Shown: piece by piece, positions 26,276 through 32,519 of the stretch
How positions within the stretch are numbered: position 1 is the stretch's first letter
Layout: each line of letters opens with the position of its first letter
NCBI GenBank assembly: GCA_021107755.1
Contig: JAIOSF010000002.1
Span: 62,001-126,000, forward strand
Length of the DNA stretch: 64,000 nucleotides
Direction of reading: 5' to 3'
DNA from: Arcobacteraceae bacterium
GTDB taxonomy: Bacteria; Campylobacterota; Campylobacteria; Campylobacterales; Arcobacteraceae
The notes under the pieces: model-generated
The model's database searches: none
What the model was told of the DNA's origin: nothing
What the model saw: the letters and a program-made list of their open reading frames with translations, nothing else
Position numbers and translations under genes: made by a program

Positions 26276-28972
26276 ATGAAAAGTTTTACAAAGTTTTTTA
26301 CAAAATTAATTTTTGGTATTGTTATAGTTTATAGTATCATAGGCTTTATAATATTACCCTACTTTGTGCAGTTTTATATCCCTACAATAATAGAAAAAAC
26401 TATCAAAACAGAAAGTTATGTAGATTCTGTACACTTTAACCCATATACTTTTCACATAAAAGTCAGTAACCTAATAATCAAAGACCAAAAAAAGCAAAAT
26501 ATTCTTTTTTTTGAAACATTAAAAATAAATATAGATCCTTTAAAACTTCTCAATAAAGAGATTAATCTTAGTGATTTTACAATTGATAATTTAAAACTAG
26601 CAATTGATATAAATAAAAACAATGTAATTAATTTTCAATATATCCTTGACGCTTTAGATAATAAAAACAATGATACTACAAATAATGAAACTACAGAAAA
26701 AAGTGATACAGTATTTACAATAGATAATCTAAACTTATCAAATATTCGATTTGTTTTTGAGGACTATTCAAAAACTACACCATTTATTGTTGAAACAAAA
26801 CCTATATCTCTTTTTTCAACCAATATCAAACTAAAAAGTAATCACACAAATAAAGTTGCATTTACTATTGATACTCACAACACAGGAAAAATATCACTTC
26901 AATCAAATATTGTAATAGAGCCATTAAGTATTGATGGGAATATTATAGTTACACAAATTGCTACCAATAAAATATTTCACTATATACAAACGCCCCAAAT
27001 GCAATTTGATATTGATTCAAAACCTCTTGATATCTCTTTTGACTTCCAATATAAAAAGATACAAGAAAAACAAAATATAGTTTTAGAAAATATTGCTATA
27101 AAACTTGATAAATTATTCTTTACTCAAAATCCTTTTTCTGTAGAGATAGAAAAACTTCTTCATAAAACACAAAAAGTACAATTAGAGATTCAAGACACTA
27201 CAACATATGATGTGACAAATATAGATACAAAGATACAAAATATACTCTTTTTAGACTCAACAAAAAAAACTCCATTAAACTTTAGTGAGTTTTCGAATAC
27301 TGTTGAGGCTTTCTCTAGTGATAAAGAAAAACCAATAAATATAATACAATCACTTCACACTCCAAAAAGCGGAACAATCAAAAGCAATATTAAAGCTATC
27401 CAAGAACCACTAAGTTTAGATATTAAACTTCATACACAAGATATAGCCATACAACCTTATGAGGCACATATACAAGAGTTTGCTAATATTGATATAAAAT
27501 CAGCACTTTTTAGTAACAAAGGGGAACTAAAAGTTACAAATGAAAATAATCAAACAAATATAAATCTACAAACAGATGCCTCTTTAAAAAATATAGATAT
27601 TCTTAACAGTACAAATAAACAACAACTATTTAAACTAGACTTGTTGAAGCTTACGAATATCAACTATCAAGACAACAATCTTTTTATAAAAAATATTGTT
27701 GTTGATAAGCCATTTATCCAATTTTCTATCAATGATAACAATACAACAAATTTCTCAAACCTTATTCCACAAGATTCAAAAAAAGAGCAACCAGCTAAAG
27801 AAAAGACAACTAAAAAAGAGTTTGTATATAATATAGATACAATCACAATAAAAAATGGTGATTCTCTCTTTGAAGATAATACTGTTTCTCCAAAATTTAT
27901 CTCAAAAGATACTCAAATCTCTGGAGATATTAAACAACTCTCATCAGATAACAAGAAAGTAGCTACGATAACTCACTCAAGTATTATAGATAGCTATGCA
28001 CCACTTTTAGTAAATACAGATATAGTTATTTCAAATCCATTAGAAGCTCTAAAAAGTGAAGTTAAAATTGAAAATATAAATTTACCCTCACTCTCTACTT
28101 ATAGTGGTAAGTTTATAGGACAAACTATAAAAAATGGGAAGTTAAACCTTACTTTGAATTATGATATTAAAAAATCTCAACTTAAAAGTACAAATAATAT
28201 TAGAATAAAAGATATAGAACTAGGTGAAAAAGTAGAGAGTAAAGATGCTATTAATGCACCTATTGGATTGGCTATAGCCCTGCTTGAAGATAATGAGGGA
28301 TATATTGATTTAGATATACCTATTGATGGAGATATCAACAATCCTAATTTTCACCTAAGTGATGCAATACTTGATGTAATCACAAATACTATAGTTGGAA
28401 TTGTATCTGCACCTTTTAAATTCTTAGCCTTACTTATTGGACTTGATGGGGAGGATATCTCTAATATTGAATTTAACTATGGAGATTTTAATATTTATGT
28501 AACACAACAAGAAAAATTGGATAATATTGTAAAAGCACTTCAAAAACGACCAAGCCTAAAATTAAAAGTAAAAACATCTTATATCCAAAATGAAGATACA
28601 ATAGCTTTACAAGAGATAAAGTTTAAAGATAAATATAACTTAATTTTCAATGAGAAAGAGGATTTTGAAAAAATTTATAAAAAAACCAAAGCAATTTTTA
28701 TAAAAGAGTTTGGAGAAAAAAGATATAAAGCTTTAGAAGGGGAAGAGAAAAACAAATATGATACTATGTTGCAAAGCCTCAAAGATACTATAAATATAAC
28801 AGAAGAAGAACTAAAACTATTAGCAACAAAAAGAGCACAAACAATACACTCATATCTTATTTCAAAAAAACTTGATCCATCTAAAATAATTATAGATGAA
28901 AATATCAAACCAAGTGTTAAAGATTTAAAGATAAATAAAGTATTAGTACTATTTGAAATTCAAGCTAAATAG
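26276..28972 (+). CDS. DUF748/AsmA-like large envelope protein
   Basis: An 898-residue protein with one N-terminal membrane helix (about residues 10-32) and a long periplasmic region of beta repeats. The region has recurring phrases of the type IDNLNLSNIRFVFED and ITIKNGDSLFED. The C-terminal 200 residues have the DUF748 signature region (YSGKFIGQTIKNGKLNL, then LDIPIDGDINNPNFHL, and a hydrophobic stretch with VSAPFKFLA). AsmA-like proteins of this group are thought to form lipid-conducting bridges between the membranes; that is family knowledge, not shown here. ATG has AGGA just upstream. It is followed 54 bases later by another AsmA-like gene. Confidence 0.78.
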   Translation: MKSFTKFFTKLIFGIVIVYSIIGFIILPYFVQFYIPTIIEKTIKTESYVDSVHFNPYTFHIKVSNLIIKDQKKQNILFFETLKINIDPLKLLNKEINLSDFTIDNLKLAIDINKNNVINFQYILDALDNKNNDTTNNETTEKSDTVFTIDNLNLSNIRFVFEDYSKTTPFIVETKPISLFSTNIKLKSNHTNKVAFTIDTHNTGKISLQSNIVIEPLSIDGNIIVTQIATNKIFHYIQTPQMQFDIDSKPLDISFDFQYKKIQEKQNIVLENIAIKLDKLFFTQNPFSVEIEKLLHKTQKVQLEIQDTTTYDVTNIDTKIQNILFLDSTKKTPLNFSEFSNTVEAFSSDKEKPINIIQSLHTPKSGTIKSNIKAIQEPLSLDIKLHTQDIAIQPYEAHIQEFANIDIKSALFSNKGELKVTNENNQTNINLQTDASLKNIDILNSTNKQQLFKLDLLKLTNINYQDNNLFIKNIVVDKPFIQFSINDNNTTNFSNLIPQDSKKEQPAKEKTTKKEFVYNIDTITIKNGDSLFEDNTVSPKFISKDTQISGDIKQLSSDNKKVATITHSSIIDSYAPLLVNTDIVISNPLEALKSEVKIENINLPSLSTYSGKFIGQTIKNGKLNLTLNYDIKKSQLKSTNNIRIKDIELGEKVESKDAINAPIGLAIALLEDNEGYIDLDIPIDGDINNPNFHLSDAILDVITNTIVGIVSAPFKFLALLIGLDGEDISNIEFNYGDFNIYVTQQEKLDNIVKALQKRPSLKLKVKTSYIQNEDTIALQEIKFKDKYNLIFNEKEDFEKIYKKTKAIFIKEFGEKRYKALEGEEKNKYDTMLQSLKDTINITEEELKLLATKRAQTIHSYLISKKLDPSKIIIDENIKPSVKDLKINKVLVLFEIQAK

Positions 28973-29026
28973 ATAAAGCAATTTTTGAGTAAAATTAGTG
29001 CTAAATTAAAATTTTAAAGGTTCAGT

Positions 29027-30532
29027 ATGAGATTAATAGTAGGTTTATTTGCAGTGATGACAACAATAATTGTTGCAGCGTATGTTATGGTGTTTACAAG
29101 TTTTGGACATGGGATTATTTTACCAATTATAGAATCAAACATAGAAAAAAATCTTAAAATAAACGATGCAAAGTTTACGAACTTTACCTTATCAACAAAC
29201 AGTATCAATACAACATTAACACTGGATAATCAACCTATACATATAGAGGGAAAATTTAATCTTATAAAAAAACTTATTGATCTTCAATATGATATCAAAA
29301 TAGATGATTTAAGTGTTTTTAATACAATCTCAAACCAAAAACTTCAAGGTACTTTTTACACAAATGGAAAAGTTATAGGTGTATTGGGAAATATTGGGAT
29401 TGAGGGGAAAGCTACTTTTGCAGATGGGAAAACTAACTATGAGCTATTTGTAAAAGAAGATAATATTAAAAATATAAAATTTTCTTTAGTAAACTTAAGT
29501 GTTGAGAAACTTTTATGGATGGTATCACAACCACAATATACAACTGGAACTCTTAATATAAATGGGACAATAAATTCACTCAATAATCTTGATGGAGATA
29601 TAGTTACAAAACTTACAAATGGTGTTTTAAATAGTGAGTTTATCAATAAAACTTTTGAACAAAACTTGCCTAAAAAAGCAACTTATGAAACAACTATAAA
29701 TACAAAGTTAGCAAAAGAAAATATAATTTCTACAGTAGATTTCAACTCTTTTGTGGCACAACTAGGTACTAAAAAAACCACATTTAATATCCCAAGTAAA
29801 AAACTAACATCTGATTATATACTTGATGTTCCAAGTTTAAATACCCTTTATTTTATCACAAATCAAAAACTAAAAGGTGGGATAACAATTAATGGAGATA
29901 TCACATTTGATAAAACATTATTAGCAACTTTTAATAGTAAAAAATTTGATGGGACTATGAAAGGGAAACTAGATAATAATAAATTAAATGTACAACTTGA
30001 TAATATACAGTCAACAAAACTTCTAGATATGCTTTACTACCCAGAGATTTTTAAATCTAATATCAGACTTGATTTAGATTATGATATTGCTACTAAAAAA
30101 GGATTGTCAAAATTAAGTTCGAACAATGGACAATTTTTAACAAATCAAACAACCCAAATGTTAAAACAATTTACCAAATATGATTTAACAATGGAGGTTT
30201 ATGATGTTACAAACCTTACAACAAAAATTGATAATACACTCCTAGAAAATGAACTTTTTATGAAAAGTAAAAATAGTCAAATCAAATCAAAAGTTTTCAC
30301 AGTTGACACTGCAAAATCAACAATCAATGCAGATTTAACTTTACAATATAGAAAATACGATATGGGTCTTAAGCTTAATGGTGCCATAGCAGATCCTAAA
30401 GTAAAATTAGATATTGGTAAAGCTATAGAAAATAAAGCAAAAGAGAAAATCAAAGAAAAATTAAATAAAGAGTTAAAAGATAAACTCAAAAATGAAAATA
30501 TAGGAAATATTTTAAACAATATTTTTAAATAA
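29027..30532 (+). CDS. AsmA-like membrane-anchored envelope protein, function unknown
   Basis: A 501-residue protein with an N-terminal membrane anchor (MRLIVGLFAVMTTIIVAAYV and further hydrophobic residues to about 34) followed by a long periplasmic region of alternating beta strands and repeated phrases such as YDIKIDDLSV and GTLNINGTI. The last 60 residues have LKLNGAIADPKVKLDIG, an AsmA-type C-terminal phrase, then a Lys/Glu/Asn-rich charged helix. It shares style with the DUF748 neighbour. AAAGGTTCAG precedes the ATG. It probably works with the two upstream genes in the cell envelope. It is not related to the nif genes that follow after a promoter-containing gap. Confidence 0.68.
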   Translation: MRLIVGLFAVMTTIIVAAYVMVFTSFGHGIILPIIESNIEKNLKINDAKFTNFTLSTNSINTTLTLDNQPIHIEGKFNLIKKLIDLQYDIKIDDLSVFNTISNQKLQGTFYTNGKVIGVLGNIGIEGKATFADGKTNYELFVKEDNIKNIKFSLVNLSVEKLLWMVSQPQYTTGTLNINGTINSLNNLDGDIVTKLTNGVLNSEFINKTFEQNLPKKATYETTINTKLAKENIISTVDFNSFVAQLGTKKTTFNIPSKKLTSDYILDVPSLNTLYFITNQKLKGGITINGDITFDKTLLATFNSKKFDGTMKGKLDNNKLNVQLDNIQSTKLLDMLYYPEIFKSNIRLDLDYDIATKKGLSKLSSNNGQFLTNQTTQMLKQFTKYDLTMEVYDVTNLTTKIDNTLLENELFMKSKNSQIKSKVFTVDTAKSTINADLTLQYRKYDMGLKLNGAIADPKVKLDIGKAIENKAKEKIKEKLNKELKDKLKNENIGNILNNIFK

Positions 30533-30598: not shown

Positions 30599-31885
30599 AT
30601 GAGTGAGAAACCAAATAAACCACTACAAATAAATCCAATCAAACTATCACAACCTATGGGAGCATTATTATGTTTTTTAGGTATTAAAAACACAATGCCA
30701 CTTATGCATGGAGCACAAGGATGTGCTAGTTTTTCAAAAGTATTTTTTACTAGACATTTTAGTGACCCAATTGCTGTACAAACAACAGCAGTAAACGATA
30801 TAACTGCTGTTCTTGATGGTGGAGACTATAGTGTCAGTGAAGCTGTAAAAAATATCACAAAAAAAGTAAAACCTGACCTCGTTGGACTTTTTACAACAGG
30901 TATGACTGAAACAAAAGGTGATGATATAAAAGGGGCAACTTTTTTACTAAAAGATGTTCAAAAAATGGTATATGTTCATACACCTGATTTTGAGGGTGGA
31001 TTAGAAAGTGGTTATGCTAAATCAATTGAAGCTATTATTGAACAATTAGTAACTCCTACAACTACAATTGATAATAAAAAAGCACTTATCATCCCTAATG
31101 TAAACCTTACACCAATAGAGGTAGAAAAAATAAAAGAACAAGTAGACTTATTTGGTTATGAAACACTAGCATTACCTGATATTAGTCAATCTCTTGATGG
31201 TCATCTGGGGCTTAAACAAGGTGCAATGAGCAGTGGTGGAATAAGTATTGAAGAGATAGAAGAACTCGGTAGTTCACAAATTGTTATAACAATTGGAAAC
31301 TCTGTAGAAAAAGCTGGGAATTTACTTAATAGTAAAAATGAAAATATGATACATCTTCACTTTGATACGATAAGCGGTTTACTAAAAGCTGATAAATTCT
31401 ATAAAAGTTTAATGGATATTAAAAAGATATCTAAACCAAATCCATCAGTGGTACGATGGAGAAAAAGATTACAAGATGCTCTTTTAGATACACATTTTGC
31501 ATTAGGTGGAGCAAAAGTTGTTATTGCAGCTGAACCAGATCAAATCCTTAGTATTGCTACAACAATAAAAGAAGCAGGAACAAATATCACAGCTGTAGTG
31601 TCTCCTACCAAAAGTGTAAGTTTAGAAACACTAAATGACATAAATGTAATAATTGGTGACTTTGATGATGTGGAAAATGAACTAAAAAATGCTGATATTC
31701 TTATCTCAAACTTTCATGGAGAAAGAATCTGTAATAATCTTAAAAAAGCACTTATGGTAAGAGGTTTTCCAAACTATGAATTAGTAGGAAACAACCTTAA
31801 AAATGATACTTTGTATGAGGGAAGTTGCTATATGCTTTTTGAGATAGCAAACATCATAAACCACTATAAATACGGACAACATTAA
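30599..31885 (+). CDS. nifN: Nitrogenase FeMo-cofactor scaffold protein NifN
   Basis: A 428-residue protein of the nitrogenase component 1 family. The N-terminal NPIKLSQPMGALLCFLG and MPLMHGAQGCASFSKVFFTRHF carry the conserved Cys and the P-cluster-like region of NifN. TTAVNDITAVLDGG and GLFTTGMTETKGDDI are family signatures, and SFTRH-type positions agree with NifN rather than NifK. NifN with NifE forms the scaffold on which the cofactor is finished. The usual partner nifE is not upstream (AsmA-like genes are), so it must lie elsewhere in the genome. ATG is preceded by AGGAA. A 39-bp inverted repeat begins 6 bases after the stop. Confidence 0.93.
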   Translation: MSEKPNKPLQINPIKLSQPMGALLCFLGIKNTMPLMHGAQGCASFSKVFFTRHFSDPIAVQTTAVNDITAVLDGGDYSVSEAVKNITKKVKPDLVGLFTTGMTETKGDDIKGATFLLKDVQKMVYVHTPDFEGGLESGYAKSIEAIIEQLVTPTTTIDNKKALIIPNVNLTPIEVEKIKEQVDLFGYETLALPDISQSLDGHLGLKQGAMSSGGISIEEIEELGSSQIVITIGNSVEKAGNLLNSKNENMIHLHFDTISGLLKADKFYKSLMDIKKISKPNPSVVRWRKRLQDALLDTHFALGGAKVVIAAEPDQILSIATTIKEAGTNITAVVSPTKSVSLETLNDINVIIGDFDDVENELKNADILISNFHGERICNNLKKALMVRGFPNYELVGNNLKNDTLYEGSCYMLFEIANIINHYKYGQH

Positions 31886-31891
31886 ACAATA

Positions 31892-32069
31892 GCATACCAC
31901 AACTATCTATTCAGTTTTATTTAAGATTAACAAAGAAATTACGCGTGACTTGGAGATGTATATCTAGGCTATTGAGGAACTTACTATCTGAAGTTAGATA
32001 AAAAGAACTTAACTGCTAAAGCTATTTCCTTTAATCTTAAATAAAACTGAATAGATAGTTGTGGTATGC
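31892..32069. repeat. Perfect 39-bp inverted repeat around a 100-nt centre, between nifN and nifX
   Basis: Left arm 31892-31930 (starts GCATACCACAACTATC) and right arm 32031-32069 (ends GATAGTTGTGGTATGC) are exact reverse complements over 39 bases. The centre 31931-32030 contains short self-complementary pieces: AGGAA 31975-31979 with TTCCT 32026-32030; TATCT 31985-31989 with AGATA 31996-32000; AGAT 31954-31957 with ATCT 31962-31965. No coding frame or T-run terminator is evident. No target-site duplication is seen. It could be a small inverted-repeat mobile element, an invertible DNA segment, or a very stable mRNA structure that separates nifN from nifX expression. Confidence 0.95.
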
Positions 32070-32084
32070 GGAACACTTTTTGCA
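32069..32084 (+). promoter_or_regulatory. Candidate sigma-54 promoter for nifX and the following nif genes
   Basis: CGG at 32069-32071, then 8 bases, then TTGCA at 32080-32084 matches the TGG-N8-TTGC pattern, with GG and GC 12 bases apart as required. It starts exactly at the last base of the inverted repeat and lies 37 bases before the nifX ATG. Confidence 0.6.
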
Positions 32085-32120
32085 TTTATATTAATATAAA
32101 TAAAAAAAGGAGATCACAAT

Positions 32121-32519
32121 ATGGGATCAACAATAAAAGTTACTTCAAATAGTTCTGCCAAAGGTTCTATCAAAGTTGCATTCGCAACAAATGACAATGA
32201 AAATATAGATGCTCACTTCGGAAGTGCTGCACAATTTAATGTGTATGATATTAGTGCTGATGATTGTGAAATATCTACAATTATTAAAATTGAAGAGAAA
32301 GATGTGGATAAAACAGTTGCTCTTCTTAAAGGTGTAGATATAGTATATTTTGTAAATATTGGAGCAACAGCTGCTGCAAAAATTATAAACTCTGGAATTT
32401 TTCCAATCAAATACAAAGAGGTTGTATCAATTGATGATGAGATCAAAAAATTAACTGCAATGTTAAATGACAAACCAGCACCATTTATTAAAAAAATTCT
32501 TGAAAAAAAGGCTGCATAG
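32121..32519 (+). CDS. nifX: NifX-type FeMo-cofactor carrier protein
   Basis: A 132-residue protein with the NifX/NafY-type dinitrogenase cofactor-binding fold. KVAFATNDNENIDAHFGSAAQF carries the typical Asp-x-His-Phe-Gly cofactor loop, and VYFVNIGATAAAKIINSGIFPIK follows near residue 75-97. NifX binds and shuttles the cofactor precursor between NifB and NifEN. A strong AAGGAGA lies upstream of the ATG, and a sigma-54-like promoter and the inverted repeat precede it. The C-terminal KPAPFIKKILEKK tail is common in the family. The stop is directly adjacent to the DUF269 gene. Confidence 0.9.
   Translation: MGSTIKVTSNSSAKGSIKVAFATNDNENIDAHFGSAAQFNVYDISADDCEISTIIKIEEKDVDKTVALLKGVDIVYFVNIGATAAAKIINSGIFPIKYKEVVSIDDEIKKLTAMLNDKPAPFIKKILEKKAA

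Follow-up and report, generated by a model that had tools for sequence, protein, structure and literature searches.

A palindrome between nifN and nifX is very probably one copy of a species-restricted miniature transposable element with arms that evolve together

Introduction

What is a perfect palindrome doing between two genes of a nif cluster, and why are its arms identical? The question is raised by the junction of nifN and nifX in the window, i.e. the whole 64-kb stretch of Arcobacteraceae DNA analysed here. We conclude with considerable confidence that this palindrome is a copy of a non-autonomous, MITE-type transposable element confined to one species; its arms seem to be kept identical by template switching. 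The element family is new and apparently orphan, as a parent was not found among four transposase families. The observation is thus best taken as a mobile-element insertion in the nif operon and not as a conserved switch.

Results

Structure of the nifN-nifX junction

A sequence-only reading of the locus had described two exact 39-base arms located 6 bases past the nifN stop, a sigma-54-type promoter touching the right end, and the absence of an open reading frame. These statements were borne out. The arms at 31892-31930 and 32031-32069 are complementary at 39 of 39 positions and are separated by 100 nt; nifN stops at 31885, and the palindrome begins 6 nt later. Its right arm adjoins the -24 GG (32070-32071) of the nifX promoter, which is conserved in relatives, and no open reading frame of at least 60 aa is present within 31895-32066. 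By chance, about 2e-14 such inverted repeats are expected per 64-kb window at 29% G+C, and the window has no strong inverted repeat other than the palindrome at 31892-32069. Folded as RNA, it has a predicted free energy of -73.7 kcal/mol (z = -13).

Two details of the earlier description require adjustment. While the palindrome does measure 39 bp per arm, alignment of 13 copies (see below) assigns only 36 bp to the element's own terminal repeat, such that the mobile unit comprises 172 bp (31895-32066) and the outermost 3 bp of the arms (GCA/TGC) are flank. The self-complementary pieces reported for the centre fall mostly in its variable middle and lack conservation across the copies. The features of the locus are listed below; the strand of the element (+) was set by its asymmetric centre.

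30599..31885, + strand: nifN, upstream host gene (Pfam Oxidored_nitro, 5.9e-79)
31892..31894, + strand: flanking GCA, which extends the palindrome to 39 bp and lies outside the conserved unit
31895..32066, + strand: complete miniature element, 172 bp, delimited by the 13-copy alignment and the 9-bp target duplications of sister copies
31895..31930, + strand: left 36-bp terminal inverted repeat, consisting of a 13-nt variable outer and a 23-nt conserved inner part
31936..31945, + strand: conserved left centre block AAATTACGCG (AATTACGCG: 1 change in 117 letters, 13 copies)
31956..32016, + strand: variable middle of the centre, with 20-30% of letters off consensus and a mean pairwise difference of the core of ~43%
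32017..32030, + strand: conserved right centre block TAAAGCTATTTYCT (4 changes in 182 letters, 13 copies)
32031..32066, - strand: right 36-bp terminal inverted repeat, fully complementary to the left one
32067..32069, + strand: flanking TGC (TGT at this place in most relatives, ahead of the promoter GG)
32070..32083, + strand: sigma-54-type -24/-12 promoter of nifX (GG-N10-GC), host sequence, intact
32121..32519, + strand: nifX, downstream host gene (Pfam Nitro_FeMo-Co, 5.7e-15)

Copies of the element and their distribution

In the genome from which the window is taken (2.62 Mb, 33 contigs), BLAST revealed 12 further copies with 77-83% identity. The covariance model built from the 13 copies recovered the same 13 with E-values of about 1e-28 or better and, in addition, a deletion derivative. 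This brings the total for the genome to 13 full-length copies plus an internally deleted one and a remnant. The full copies are spread over 10 contigs, and all are intergenic or located at gene edges; the gaps that hold them are divergent, convergent or co-directional, and the element occurs in both orientations. Unit length among copies ranges from 169 to 194 bp, with 36-bp terminal inverted repeats (consensus TAGCACAATCCnnTATTCAGTTTTATTTAAGATTAA, copies aligned by their inner arms) enclosing a centre of about 100 nt. This centre is asymmetric and unevenly conserved, the variable middle being bordered by the nearly invariant blocks AATTACGCG and TAAAGCTATTTTCT. Copies L019 and L020 have a 22-nt insertion in common, and subfamilies therefore exist. 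The insertion is located at the right end of the centre and contains an AAGAC/GTCTT pair, a mark of the subfamily.

The deletion derivative (C8:138915; positions 2920-2985 of L022) measures 62 bp and has kept a shorter hairpin, as predicted by slipped mispairing in a palindrome. The half-copy remnant (C23:37964; positions 2965-3002 of L021) has lost its right arm. Its left arm is off consensus at several sites, with the adjoining CAAAGAAATTACGCG block still recognisable, and it might serve as a control for arm copying.

Outside this genome the element was not detected. Applied to 103 further genomes of the family, among them three of the same genus with a completeness of 61-85%, the covariance model found no copy. 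Collections of plasmids, phages and viral contigs contained zero copies. The sole match among public genomes, on a SAR86 contig (L035), consists of 23 searched bases with no element around them, and among weak BLAST matches in relatives G008, G014 and G015 the two inspected (G008 and G015) were devoid of the element. In Rfam nothing reached the gathering score, the best match being MIR1888 with 30.7 bits against a cut-off of 72.

Target duplications and empty sites

Comparison of left and right flanks over the copies gave 67% identity at a length of 9 bp and 31-48% at all other lengths between 3 and 15. The 9-base flank score was reached by none of 20,000 flank permutations. Exact 9/9 duplications flank two copies (GTTTATTTG and TACTTTATC), and one more has 8/9. 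The flanks of the window copy match at 3 of 9 positions and thus show no target duplication, which is absent also in L017 and L018. The earlier statement that no target-site duplication is seen accordingly holds for the window copy but not for the family, which has one of 9 bp.

Where nifN and nifX could be read in relatives, 9, 16 or 19 nt separate the nifN stop from the promoter GG, as compared to 184 nt here. Similarly, the bioF-like gene and rplM are 138 nt apart in same-genus genome G002 and 349 nt apart here, with the element in between. These apparent empty sites agree with an insertion. The unit is shorter than ~500 bp, has terminal inverted repeats, is dispersed over mostly intergenic sites, is associated with a target duplication of fixed length and contains no transposase. 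It therefore has the anatomy by which prokaryotic MITEs are defined. Dispersed copies, the 9-bp target duplication and empty sites strongly support the miniature inverted-repeat element that had been one of the initial proposals.

A TA target duplication of the IS630/mariner type was ruled out by the 9-bp register; the TA at the tips belongs to the element. Assignment to IS630/Tc1-type MITEs is also at odds with the absence of PF13358. PF01797, the Y1/RAYT transposase domain expected for REP/REPIN elements, is likewise absent from the genome. None of the domains DDE_3, Y1_Tnp, DDE_Tnp_1 and Transposase_mut was found in the assembly, in a search limited to these four families and made on a draft which may have lost insertion sequences; duplications of 9 bp are also made by IS1-type and some other transposases outside this set. 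Prokaryotic MITEs commonly, though not by strict definition, have ends in common with an autonomous insertion sequence; here, no other locus with the element's arms or paired tips was found.

The proposed history starts with a transposase supplied in trans, now absent from the assembly or unrecognised in it, which would have cut the ends and inserted the element with a 9-bp stagger. One of the insertions would have fallen behind the nifN stop and ahead of the -24 box of the nifX promoter. Thereafter, template switching in the hairpin during replication (quasi-palindrome correction) would have preserved the identity of the arms, whereby a mutation in one arm is either copied to the other arm or erased. 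Such arm-to-arm copying would make the two arms of each copy match perfectly while the copies differ from one another.

Concerted change of the arms

The copies represent a small natural experiment on how long hairpins retain pairing, each of them carrying a roughly neutral clock (the target duplication) beside paired arms. Within a copy the two arms differ on average at 1.75 of 36 positions, whereas the same arm differs at 8.06 of 36 between copies. Parsimony on a centre-only tree, itself weakly supported, gave 43 branches with changes in both arms versus 12 with changes in one arm. The covariation score was 0.379 compared to 0.133 for shuffled data (reached in 0 of 500), and it collapsed when partners were slid by one base.

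In the seven copies with a recognisable duplication, the duplications differ at 10 of 63 sites (the 63 sites on which the clock rests) and the inner arms at 1 of 161 (Fisher p = 1.5e-5). As duplications are exact at insertion, matching of the arms has therefore been maintained after insertion. The outer arms vary between copies at 5.1 of 11 positions, which about equals the variation of the unconstrained middle (~43%), the outcome predicted for neutral changes that are copied to the other arm. Mismatches within outer arms amount to 0 of 55 in five copies without a recognisable duplication and to 10 of 77 in the seven with one (p = 0.005, for a split of copies made after seeing the data). Perfect outer arms thus accompany lost duplications, the reverse of simple decay. 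The initial view that perfect identity signals recent spread is for this reason probably wrong, and it is also opposed by the arm differences between copies, which are matched on both sides.

Judged from these sequence comparisons, continued arm-to-arm copying by template switching appears to fit better than recent insertion. Selection for pairing could also yield covarying arms; the three observations above favour copying as the main process behind the matched arms, and the comparison of clock and arms favours copying at the DNA level over slow compensatory selection. Copying alone does not account for the sequence conservation of the inner arms and of both centre blocks; this conservation points to a putative binding region of the lost transposase or to a continuing function. 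Copying of the outer arms from the target flank was ruled out, as the closest sisters L009, L012 and L020 have outer arms in common although their sites are unrelated. It is established that template switching perfects hairpins and maintains them (PMC8794818), and there is established precedent for homogenisation of inverted-repeat arms (PMC8604942). Whether copying rewrites each copy into a perfect palindrome of its own, such that perfect arms mark old insertions and the duplication is the clock, is a proposal for which we see an even chance. The copies caution against taking perfect arms as a sign of youth or covariation as proof of RNA function.

Alternative explanations

It is doubtful that transposition selects perfectly paired ends and that all copies are simply too young for decay. 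Such a history would explain the matched arms as well as the conserved inner arms and adjoining blocks, the latter as the transposase binding region, and known MITEs do keep their ends and vary in the middle (PMC6382973); however, the target duplications are far more decayed than the inner arms, and several copies that have wholly lost the duplication still have perfect outer arms. The sequence-only reading had also considered an invertible switch. In such a switch, the 39-bp arms would recombine, the 100-nt centre would be inverted and nifX expression would be toggled. The arms are long enough for recombination or template-switch inversion, and the promoter adjoins the element. Yet the same palindrome is present at 12 unrelated sites, the promoter lies outside the invertible part, no recombinase is tied to the element, and the mobile element explains the palindrome without inversion. 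The switch thus found no support and is highly improbable. Template switching does make perfect hairpins (PMC8794818), but a private palindrome that arose by a single such event at the nifN-nifX locus is refuted by 13 homologous copies with a shared centre and 9-bp target duplications, and its likelihood is practically nil.

A functional structured RNA or processing site, where selection on each transcript, the nif mRNA included, would keep the hairpin and the centre blocks (e.g. for cleavage by RNase III or for stabilising mRNA) and transposition would be only the origin of the spread, is rather unlikely. In its favour are centre blocks that are nearly invariant (1/117 and 4/182) beside a middle with 20-30% departures, strong compensatory covariation and a very stable fold, and there is precedent in MITE transcripts that are cut by RNase III (Correia) or turned into sRNAs (Coxiella QMITE2) (PMC10969869, PMC5896051). 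Against it, no Rfam family matches at gathering score, the element is absent from the 103 other family genomes, its copies occupy gaps of all three kinds (divergent, convergent, co-directional) and occur in both orientations, and a terminator scan at the element, which covers short loops only, found no terminator-like site. Nor do G-U mismatches clearly outnumber C-A mismatches on one strand: counted by eye, about 5 G-U versus 3 C-A type mismatches are present, which is uninformative with respect to strand-specific RNA selection.

Relation to known elements

In architecture, the nearest known system is, on our analysis, QMITE2 of Coxiella burnetii, with terminal inverted repeats of 23-29 bp, a core of 113-145 bp and direct repeats of 7-9 bp (PMC5896051, PMC10969869). 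Like the element described here, QMITE2 is ~170 bp long with long inverted ends, a strong predicted hairpin and many intergenic copies, some of which lack discernible direct repeats (PMC5896051). The likeness to this element of another organism is one of architecture. With 36 bp, the arms of the present element exceed those of QMITE2 in length, and from copy to copy they change in matched fashion. MITEAba12 of Acinetobacter is also non-autonomous, with 9-bp target duplications, conserved ends and a variable centre, but it measures 113 bp and has 16-bp ends in common with the resident ISAba12 (PMC6382973), whereas no parent was found for the present element. ERIC and Correia (NEMIS) elements are similar in form as short palindromic intergenic repeats that give rise to hairpins in mRNA (PMC10969869). 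REP/REPIN sequences with their RAYT transposases are likewise dispersed, gene-less palindromic repeats (PMC3733652, PMC3116915), but REPs are only 20-40 bp long, and the Y1_Tnp domain is absent from the present genome. The literature searched contained no report of MITEs from this bacterial group.

Possible consequences for the nif operon

The GGAACAC core of the nifX promoter is present upstream of nifX in 15 of the 17 loci of relatives examined. The promoter sequence at 32070-32086 is GG-N10-GC, as it is in most relatives; L038, L039 and L040 have GG-N10-GA. In L048 and L054 (genus g2), the GGAACAC sigma-54 box was not found between nifN and nifX. NifA-type sites (TGT-N10-ACA) were not present within 420 nt upstream of the promoter, neither in the window nor in relatives.

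The insertion would have spared the -24/-12 box while stretching the spacing between nifN and the promoter from ~9-19 bp to 184 bp. Any readthrough transcript from nifN to nifX would carry a stable hairpin of 36-39 bp 6 nt past the nifN stop; the hairpin has no immediate U-run. Correia and ERIC elements have known effects on mRNA that involve RNase III and RNase E, Correia transcripts being cut by RNase III and ERIC causing 3'-end destabilisation (PMC10969869). By analogy, cutting by RNase III or destabilisation of the 3' end is plausible for nif readthrough mRNA, and a role of the element in processing or stability of nif mRNA is possible.

Directly upstream of nifN (26276-30532), a DUF748 protein of 898 aa and a 501-aa protein without a Pfam match at 0.001 are encoded, a pair of neighbours that is unusual for a nif cluster.
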